Source of the DNA: Vicinamibacterales bacterium | GTDB taxonomy: Bacteria; Acidobacteriota; Vicinamibacteria; Vicinamibacterales; SCN-69-37 | Assembly: GCA_030827135.1 (NCBI GenBank) | Contig: JAURFE010000001.1 | Coordinates: 152,569 to 216,568 of the forward strand | Reading direction: 5' to 3' | Length of the DNA: 64,000 nucleotides | Part shown: positions 51,348-53,883 of the stretch, in pieces | How positions within the stretch are numbered: the first letter of the stretch is position 1 | Layout: the number at the start of each line of letters is the position of its first letter | Translations under genes and position numbers: made by a program | The notes under the pieces: generated by a model | What the model was told of the DNA's origin: nothing | Databases searched by the model: none | Seen by the model: only the letters and a program-made list of their open reading frames with translations

Positions 51348-52495
51348 TCGTCGAACGCCCGGCGCTCGAACGCCGCGTCCTCGAATCGCTCGACGCGGGG
51401 CGCATCCCCGTGGTGCTCGGCGGATGCGCCGCGGGCCGCACCTCGCTGCTCCTGCGGCTGCAGTCGTTGTTTGGCGCCGACCGCGCGCAGTACATCGATT
51501 TTGCCGCAGCGGCCACCACGCCCGAGCGCTGTGTCGCGGCGGTGATCGGATCGGGACCAGCGGCCGCGCGTGCGTCGGGCACACCACCGGCGCCGCGCAG
51601 CGCCAAGGCCGCGTTCGACGGACTCACCCACTACTTTGCGGCGGCCACAGGCGACGCCAGGGTGCCCATGACGTTCCTCATCGATGAAGTACTCGATGTG
51701 CGGACGTTCGAGAGTTTCCCCGGCCTTCGCCATGTGCAGCGCGACCTGGTCACGCGCATCGCGGCCAGCCCCAACGCCTTTGTGCTCGCGTCACGGTTCA
51801 CCGCACGCGCCCATCGTCTGCTGCGGGATGCGCCCGCGCGATTCGAAGTCATCCACATGCCGCCGCTCGGAGCGGAGGACGTCAATCTGCTCGTGCGGCA
51901 GAGCAACGACGACACCGCGTGGCCGGCGGCGCTGGCCGCCGACGTGGCCACGCTCTCGGGCGGACGCGCCGGCTACGCGCGCCTGCTCGTGGAATCGGTG
52001 CTGGCCCAGCCCCTGCATCGGCGCAATGTGCCGCTCGCGCTCGCCGCCGCACTCAGTCCGGATGGCGCGCTCACCGCCCGCTGCCGCGAGAGCTACGAGC
52101 TCCGCCTCCACCGCGCCCGCGGGTACGGCGCGCTCAAGGCGATCCTTGGTGTGCTCGCCGACCAGGAAGGGTTGACGCTCACCGAGATCAGCCAGCGCCT
52201 CCATCGCACGCCCGGCTCGACCAAGGACTATCTCTCCTGGCTCGAGGACGTGGACCTCGTCACGGTACACCGCAAGCGGTACACCTTCGACGACCCCCTC
52301 CTCCGTCTCTTCGTGCGCCTCCACGCGCAGCCCGTCCCGCCAACAGCCGACGACGTCACGCGCGAAGTCACGATCTTTGCCAACGGGACTTCGGCGCCTG
52401 CTCTCTCGGCGACACCCGCGAGCCCTGCGCCTGCTCCGGAAGCCAAGACTCCGGTGGCCGTGGCGGATCGGTCTGGGATTATTGAGATTGACTGA
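51344..52495 (+). CDS. AAA-type ATPase with Arg in the Walker A motif and a C-terminal helix-turn-helix
   Basis: 383 residues related to the archaeal-type STAND/AAA ATPases. Walker A reads GGCAAGRTS (26-34), with Arg32 where Lys is standard. A Walker B-like FLIDEV is near residue 108. The C-terminal third has a winged-helix look ([30 protein letters not shown]) and a disordered Pro/Ala tail follows. Function unknown; it is coupled to hutU by a GTGA overlap but is not a known hut gene. ATP hydrolysis may be weak or absent. Confidence 0.65.
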
Positions 52496-52500
52496 CCGGC

Positions 52501-52522
52501 GTTCCGAAGTTCCGAAGTTCCC
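52501..52522. repeat. Left CCGAAGTT word flank
   Basis: GTTCCGAAGTTCCGAAGTTC begins 5 bp after the ATPase stop. It is the inverted partner of the flank at 52834-52860; with the enclosed ORF they fill the whole gap between the convergent genes. Confidence 0.75.
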
Positions 52523-52571
52523 CAGTCCTCTTGCTGACCAGTGAATTCGTTGCACAAGTCACAAGACCGCA

Positions 52572-52838
52572 TTGGCAGAATCTGCCACGGCGCCACGGTG
52601 TGACCATCTGCTGATTCGCGCGACGCCTCGTGCTTTCGGCGACGTCGAATGGCGCAAACAAGTCTTTGATGCGGCGATGGGAGTCGAGAGTCACGTCGCA
52701 GAAGGCTGGGCCTACACCACCGAAGGGTGCCGCGCACTGCTCGTGCACGAACGAATCTGTGGCGCCGCCCTCCGCCGGCTCAGCGAAAGCCTCCAGCGCT
52801 TCATTCCCGATCCTCCTCCACCCCGCAAATGCCGGTAA
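52572..52838 (+). pseudogene. Degenerate small ORF resembling a four-helix-bundle (S23/Avd-like) protein
   Basis: The 88 codons from a TTG include FGDVEWRKQVFDAAMGVESH and HVAEGWAYTT, resembling the 'R-x-Q-(I/V)-x-x-A-(A/S)...(N/H)-(I/V)-(A/S)-EG' core of PF05635-type four-helix-bundle proteins. The first helix is missing; upstream DNA in another frame reads TSEFVAQV, which would fit it, so frameshifts may have broken the gene. The C-terminus is Pro-rich and runs into the word array. No ribosome site is visible. The match is by eye and short, so an unrelated ORF remains possible. Confidence 0.35.
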
Positions 52839-52860
52839 CTTCGGAACCTCGGAACTTCGC
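52834..52860. repeat. Right CCGAAGTT word flank (inverted)
   Basis: GGTAACTTCGGAACCTC followed by GGAACTTCGC; its reverse complement has the same GTTCCGAGGTTCCGAAGTT word as the left flank. It ends at the TAG of the RNase III gene. Confidence 0.75.
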
Positions 52861-53807
52861 TACTGCGCTGTCTTCAGCGCATGCAGAGCGAGCTTCGCCG
52901 CCTGTTGCTGCGCGTCCTTCTTGGATCGCCCGTCGGCGCGGCCGACGACGACACCCGCGACGAGCACTTCGACATCAAAACGTTTGCGGTGATCAGGACC
53001 GTCCGTGGATGCCATCTGGTAGATCGGCAGGCCCTTGTTGTTGGCCTGCAGCCATTCCTGGAGCGCGGACTTCCAGTCGTCGGTGAACGATGCTTCGGCG
53101 ACCTGGTCGCCTCCTGAGGTGATGAGCGGTCCGAAGATCGACACGATGAACGCGCGCGCGGCGTCGATGCCGCCGTCAAGGTAAATCGCGGCGATGAGGG
53201 CTTCGAAGCAGTCGGCGAGGATCGCGTACTTCGCACGACCACCGGTCTTCTCCTCGCCGCGGCCGAGCAGCAGGAAGCGCCCGAGGTCGATGCCGGCGGC
53301 AAGTCTGGCCAGCGAGGCCGTTGAGACAATCGACGCCTTGATCTTGGACTTGTAGCCCTCGCTGTGCGTCGGGAACCGCTGGAACAACATGTCCGCGACG
53401 ACGAACCCCAGCACGGCGTCACCGAGGAACTCGAGAGACTCGTTGTCGATGACCCCGCCGGACGCATCTTCGTGCGCGCGCGACCGGTGCGTGAGCGCGT
53501 GTTCGAGCAGGCCGAGGTCGCGAAAGTGGTACCCGATGCGGTCCTGGAGCGGTCCCATGTCTTCGCCGAGCCGCGCGACCTCGGCCGCCGCGGCTTCGTC
53601 GAGATGACTCGCAATCAGGGCAAGGGCACGCTCCTCCTGCCCGTCGGCGACCGTGACGGTGAACGCCGCCTGCCCGCCGAATCGCAGGGGAAACAGTCCG
53701 GGTGCGAGCGTGGACGACACCTGCGCCGGCAGCCCATGCGCCGCGAGCAACCCGCGGACCACTTCGGCTTCAATCGACAGATGACTTCGAAACACGCCAA
53801 CACTCAT
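52860..53807 (-). CDS. rnc: Ribonuclease III with N-terminal DUF2007-like domain
   Basis: 315 residues, longer than the usual 220-250. Residues about 80-225 are the RNase III domain with the signature NESLEFLGDAVLG and the second acidic site DCFEALIAAIYLDGG. About 240-312 is the double-strand RNA-binding domain (DWKSALQEWLQA ... SKKDAQQQAAKLALHAL). Residues 1-72 (VFRSHLSIEAEVVRGLLAAHG ... ALALIASHL) resemble DUF2007, a putative signal-transducing fold not normally fused to RNase III. The ATG at 53807 is used; GTG at 53813 is the other start. The TAG stop lies at a word-array edge. Confidence 0.88.
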   Translation of the reverse strand: MSVGVFRSHLSIEAEVVRGLLAAHGLPAQVSSTLAPGLFPLRFGGQAAFTVTVADGQEERALALIASHLDEAAAAEVARLGEDMGPLQDRIGYHFRDLGLLEHALTHRSRAHEDASGGVIDNESLEFLGDAVLGFVVADMLFQRFPTHSEGYKSKIKASIVSTASLARLAAGIDLGRFLLLGRGEEKTGGRAKYAILADCFEALIAAIYLDGGIDAARAFIVSIFGPLITSGGDQVAEASFTDDWKSALQEWLQANNKGLPIYQMASTDGPDHRKRFDVEVLVAGVVVGRADGRSKKDAQQQAAKLALHALKTAQ

Positions 53808-53815
53808 AGACACTC

Positions 53816-53877
53816 ACTGGCGCGCTCACAGCCAGCGCGCCCTACGACTGGCGCGCTCACAGCCAGCGCGCCCTGCA
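53816..53877. repeat. Two REP-like palindromes in tandem (31-bp units)
   Basis: Each unit holds GGCGCGCT-loop-AGCGCGCC followed by CTRC(G). On the minus strand the unit reads CGTAGGGCGCGCTG, GCT, GTGAGCGCGCC, matching the element at 46639 except for three loop bases. Confidence 0.85.
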
Positions 53878-53883
53878 GGCCCC

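Follow-up and report, generated by a model that had tools for sequence, protein, structure and literature searches.

Why should the short gap between two convergent genes, one for an ATPase and one for RNase III, hold a small open reading frame (ORF) enclosed by inverted arrays of a short word? The question arises from the window, a stretch of 64,000 nucleotides from a Vicinamibacterales bacterium. An earlier note had seen a resemblance of the decayed ORF to S23/Avd-like (PF05635) four-helix-bundle proteins and had proposed that such proteins, if they recur inside word arrays, could be the mobility or expansion factor of the repeats, the ORF then being a dead copy. We consider it probable that a mobile element has left a dead copy here. 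Its sole gene would code for an S23/IVP four-helix-bundle protein, and at its ends stand inverted tandem arrays of a 7-8 nt word, G-rich inward and capable of forming a hairpin. Such an element would be a REPIN/RAYT-like system built on an S23 protein, and would correspond, in intergenic DNA, to the intervening sequences (IVSs) of 23S rRNA.

Structure of the element in the window

The element is a 364-base stretch bounded by inverted CCGAAGTT arrays (Table 1). The ATPase ORF ends at 52495, the left array begins five bases after the ATPase stop, at 52501, and the right array, ending at 52859, abuts the RNase III stop (complement of 52860-52862). The arms 52501-52522 and 52834-52855, 22 nt each, are 91% complementary, and their alignment score is 17.0 versus 14.5 for the best among 5000 shuffles. 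CCGAAGTT occurs seven times in the window against 1.6 expected, a count reached in 0 of 100 shuffles. The inverted arrays that the earlier note had placed at the ends of the two genes are thereby borne out. The arms are short, with two to three word units each, and the window pair alone is modest evidence; the case for the arrays is strong because of the relatives described below. The word of the element has 8 nt; a period of 7 prevails across the family.

Table 1. Positions in the window of the element, its parts and other word arrays
Feature	Positions	Strand	Basis
Whole element, occupying all the space from the ATPase stop codon to that of RNase III	52496..52859	.	Comparison with relatives
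Left word array, GTTCCGAAGTTCCGAAGTTCCC, 8-nt word CCGAAGTT	52501..52522	+	Inverted repeat I1, 22 nt, 91% complementary; 0/5000 shuffles reach the score
Right word array, the left one in inverted orientation, up to the RNase III stop codon	52834..52859	-	Inverted repeat
Putative decayed S23/four-helix-bundle (PF05635-type) gene	52572..52838	+	blastp/phmmer against PF05635 proteins of sister genomes
Gene-less element, ATTGAGG word family, termini as in the intact PF05635 element L003	7746..7923	.	
Gene-less inverted element, CAATGGGG word family, as at PF05635 locus L005	30011..30166	.	
Array, GGTCCAGG word family, as at PF05635 locus L002	25150..25182	+	
Array, TGGGCGGA word family, as at PF05635 locus L004	31395..31439	+	
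Array, GGACTCCT word family, as at PF05635 locus L002	60722..60750	+	

Two further repeats lie nearby. The palindrome GCAGAATCTGC is situated at 52574-52586, between the left array and the gene, likewise ~150 bases upstream of the PF05635 domain of locus L006, and also at locus L238 of genome G005; as a general feature it was rejected, with one occurrence among 206 upstream regions. Repeats of the form CTGGCGCGCTCACAGCCAGCGCGCCCTAC at 53813-53880, just upstream of the RNase III gene, resemble the REP repeats flanking the RAYT gene L349.

The enclosed gene

The direct profile search of the ORF (52572-52838) against Pfam and NCBIfam gave no match even at E<=10, so the PF05635 resemblance in the earlier note is not recovered in that form. 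Frame +1 of 52440-52900, on the other hand, matches the proteins of loci L013 (blastp E 1e-10), L021 (7e-8), L014 and L002, the E values being those of a small database of 46 sequences, PF05635 proteins of the same bacterial family. These four proteins themselves match PF05635, and L002 matches TIGR02436 as well; all four loci have GGTCC-type words. The homology falls into two blocks, about 52605-52712 and 52704-52802, between which residues 129-159 of L013 (~31 residues) are missing. The two-block match with this deletion therefore identifies the ORF as a broken S23/four-helix-bundle gene, a decayed PF05635-type gene that appears only through its relatives and not by direct HMM search. Loss of the gene core agrees with the description of the copy as dead.

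PF05635 loci within inverted word arrays

If the arrangement in the window is that of a family, intact PF05635 genes should lie between such arrays, as the earlier note had supposed. In the genome of the window, all six PF05635 genes lie between inverted word arrays by inspection, each with its own word, L002 being slightly under the automatic threshold (z 4.2; arrays were called at z>=5). Across the phylum, among loci with full flanks, 48 of 53 PF05635 loci exceed that threshold versus none of 26 ParE toxin loci taken from the same order (Fisher p 3e-16). A set of named loci, spanning candidate phyla, Firmicutes, Bacteroidota, Proteobacteria, Chloroflexi, Spirochaetes and ANME-1 archaea, has inverted word arrays in 57 of 73 cases, while 0 of 257 displaced controls score 18 or more; all ten plasmid loci (nine cyanobacterial, one Riemerella) have them too. 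These loci are partly non-independent, some viral contigs being near duplicates. Arrays were not recognised at L017, L024, L034 and L055, and 16 of the 73 named loci fall below z=5, so that recognisable arms are absent from about one tenth (phylum set) to one fifth (named set) of PF05635 loci. Rfam searches of 16 relative loci, mostly array-poor, gave no rRNA and only one tRNA. We also note that at L241 and L245, on cyanobacterial plasmids of two genera, an S23 gene with its arrays is found between cas6 and cas4 of CRISPR operons.

Properties of the arms and their relation to the protein

Of 136 arms, 107 repeat with a period of 7 and 21 with a period of 8, and the G-rich strand is directed inward in 125 of the 133 arms that have skew. 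The heptamer consensus is loosely AG(G/T)NWGT, with 4.2 bits versus 3.3 for shuffled words. Mismatches between arms show no excess of G.U (146 vs 165). Because of the missing excess, a role of the arms as an RNA fold is without support and pairing at the RNA level was rejected; a role as DNA is not thereby proven.

Word and protein go together. Among protein pairs with a relative score of 0.7-0.8, 92% have a common word 6-mer, versus 14-19% of pairs below 0.4, and a Mantel test of word against protein relatedness was reached by 0 of 500 permutations. Related S23 proteins carry related words even at unrelated sites, for among 232 protein pairs at >=0.6 with unlike outer flanks, 125 have word 6-mers in common.

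Gene-less arrays

Arrays without a gene were surveyed in the window plus 400 kb of contig C22 of the same genome. Outside L003, 45 of 48 arrays match words of the seven PF05635 loci of the genome, the window element included; when foreign elements were taken instead, in sets of 21 with a comparable summed length, a mean of 9.7 and a maximum of 20 arrays matched. The ATTGAGG family comprises ~18 distinct copies that by inspection have one set of termini, CGNGTTATTGAGG...CCTCAATAACNCG. A gene is borne by L003 (677 bp) alone, the other copies being mostly 120-200 bp long, and the left and right arms are more alike within a copy than between copies (0/5000 permutations).

The window's own word family consists of scattered arrays for which no master was found. 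CCGAAGT dimers number 11 in the genome of the window and 10 in G011, some adjoining tRNA-Leu genes, and none of twelve CCGAAGT loci inspected encloses an intact gene. CCGAAGTT arrays adjoin a tRNA-Leu gene in both sister genomes, at L355 (G000) and L356 (G011), and at L357 (G000:C11:845739) a CCGAAGTT array is apparently in frame within a gene read by eye as rlmN.

Genes and arrays do not always coincide. G154 has two arrays and no detected PF05635 gene, and G003 has two genes and no arrays in 100 kb. Array density, compared by presence or absence of PF05635, was 2 in 379 kb versus 11 in 300 kb, a suggestive difference drawn from few genomes and confounded by kinship.

The main rival explanation is that the arrays are themselves the mobile or self-expanding part, by means of replication slippage and repair in the host alone, and that the S23 gene is a passenger gaining from a protected hairpin, or a mere regulator or stabiliser. 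It is consistent with an S23 protein lacking any known enzyme motif, with gene-less arrays far outnumbering genes, with the arrays of G154, and with polymerase slippage as an explanation of heptamer repeats (cited in PMC4679880). A passenger is not required, however, to co-vary in lineage with words at unrelated sites, nor to match the words resident in its genome, and we regard this explanation as unlikely.

Occupied and empty sites

The window element is absent from the ATPase/RNase III site in seven relatives. In G011, which belongs to the same genus and has a 96% identical RNase III, the gap is ~40 bases with a small hairpin; in G008, G010, G012, G002, G003 and G004 it ranges from a few to ~70 bases. 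That hairpin, together with the position between two convergent stop codons, would suit a terminator of the convergent genes with a spurious ORF. The two-block S23 homology, the size of the element and the family-wide pattern argue against such a terminator, which we consider very improbable.

Other spacers also differ between genomes. The L256 copy of the ATTGAGG family is absent in G011, which at further sites compared has shorter copies or arrays of other words. The orthologous spacer of L006 and L033 holds related S23 genes in opposite orientation with different words, as if the element had been inverted and its word changed. From the shorter copies, changed words and flipped gene, spacers appear to be often re-occupied or rewritten. 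No target-site duplication is visible at the one empty/filled pair compared, where the flanks have diverged.

Comparison with known systems

The IVSs of 23S rRNA in Coxiella and Leptospira are small elements with an S23 ORF whose complementary ends form a stem; they have been called selfish, reside in rRNA helices and are excised by RNase III, and the Coxiella IVS ORF is also decaying (PMC4990558). The window element resembles them in having a decaying S23/PF05635 ORF bounded by complementary ends. It differs in its site, between the ATPase and RNase III genes rather than in an rRNA helix; the present elements lie between protein genes, their arms are tandem word arrays, and they have dispersed gene-less partners.

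A second resemblance, at the level of the family with its prevailing period of 7, is to the short tandem repeats (STRR) and G-rich heptamer repeats of Nostoc and Xanthomonas. These are intergenic tandem arrays of G-rich 7-nt units, many of them arranged as convergent inverted pairs. For the GGGAATC heptamers of Xanthomonas, Rehm et al. 2015 (PMC4692102) counted 70-75 such pairs in each genome and reported no association with mobile elements; S23 or helix bundles are not mentioned there. A link is provided by X. cucurbitae, which has 244 GGGAATC dimers and whose S23 locus has GGGAATC arms. Four of five other genomes searched have no GGGAATC dimers, and the genome of the window has six, GGGAATC being the word of L006 there.

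In REPIN/RAYT systems, one gene with flanking inverted short repeats is accompanied by many gene-less inverted pairs of the same repeat. The gene-less inverted copies of the ATTGAGG family likewise carry the repeat of the gene-bearing copy. In contrast to REPIN/RAYT (PMC3116915), the gene is S23 and not a Y1 transposase, and the repeats are tandem words that vary by locus. The two systems coexist in the genome of the window with different repeats: its two Y1_Tnp (RAYT) genes are both flanked by palindromic REP-like repeats of their own, no word arrays are present at these two loci, and the Y1 tyrosine transposase is not in the element. These two genes and the identical layout invite the reading that another host transposase, above all RAYT, moves the arrays, which is improbable given that the RAYT loci bear other repeats and the genes inside the arrays are S23; RAYT as mobiliser was therefore rejected.

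The earlier note had also drawn a connection to diversity-generating retroelements (DGRs) through Avd, a distant relative of the S23 protein in fold and sequence. The locus could accordingly be a DGR remnant with the protein as Avd, and the distant homology of Avd and PF05635 (PMC10053308) and a score of 31 bits to NF033474 (Avd) for a canonical family member speak for it. That score is well below the cut-off of 80, and no RVT_1 is present in the genome. Genes for Avd adjoin a reverse transcriptase and are accompanied by direct repeats of the TR/VR type, not by inverted word arrays. The weak viral matches L190-L206 serve as a built-in negative set, in which inverted arrays are missing wherever direct repeats are strong; four that were checked are DGRs, because RVT_1 adjoins the gene, and these have direct repeats and no inverted arrays. 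With the reverse transcriptase missing and the repeats of the wrong type, a functional link to DGRs is not supported and the connection is one of distant homology only; a DGR remnant, contradicted by the missing reverse transcriptase, is scarcely credible.

We know of no recognised motif of a known transposase or nuclease in the S23 protein family. PDB 2gsc (XCC0516, Xanthomonas campestris) is a solved member of the family (E 4e-39), deposited as an uncharacterised protein with no link to DNA given, and 2rld is also solved. An X. campestris member is described as a homopentameric ring in the Coxiella IVS paper (PMC4990558). Within the open-access journal literature, no report tying S23 to word arrays was found, and a prior description is possible.

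Proposed mechanism

The S23-in-word-array architecture recurs across prokaryotes, gene-less copies carry words and termini that match those of gene-bearing copies, and elements are present or absent at orthologous sites; in these sequence comparisons mobility finds its support. Against it stand the absence of an observed transposition, the missing clean duplication at the one empty site compared, the protein's want of a known catalytic motif, the PF05635 loci that have no arrays, the two array-less genes of G003 and the arrays of G154. Since the RAYTs have their own repeats, RVT_1 is absent and S23 is without a known motif, we infer that the S23 protein recognises the word and aids copying by host replication or repair, much as in REPIN/RAYT although the two proteins are unrelated. 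It is still the presumed, rather than the observed, driver of mobility and expansion, yet the words co-vary with the protein and the scattered arrays match resident loci.

For the S23-based mobile element, the following course may be envisaged. A ring-forming S23 protein would bind its own word where the DNA is single-stranded or folded as a hairpin, and would thereby allow the replication or repair machinery of the host to copy the folded element to other intergenic positions. The arrays would lengthen by slippage, and the two arms would stay alike through hairpin templating. Pairs without a gene would spread in trans, on the model of REPINs and RAYT. In the window, the master would have lost its gene core, with the word surviving as about ten scattered arrays.

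Implications

More tentatively, and with some doubt, these elements could be a prokaryote-wide class of mobile element that has neither transposase nor reverse transcriptase. A four-helix-bundle ring protein would recognise the heptamer belonging to it and drive the copying of hairpin-ended elements by host replication, and the class would be the common source of scattered heptamer repeats and rRNA IVSs.

S23/IVP proteins, though structurally solved, have to our knowledge been assigned no role, nor has an origin been settled for the heptamer word repeats in cyanobacteria, Xanthomonas and others. The tie between S23 and the repeats gives both a testable function, the protein being a partner of the repeats that is specific for their word. 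If it is true, the rRNA intervening sequences would be one branch of a broader family of elements with hairpin ends, and the fast turnover of intergenic spacers would be accounted for. The architecture found around most sampled S23 genes, in bacteria and some archaea, may explain where the short-word repeats dispersed through many bacterial genomes originate.
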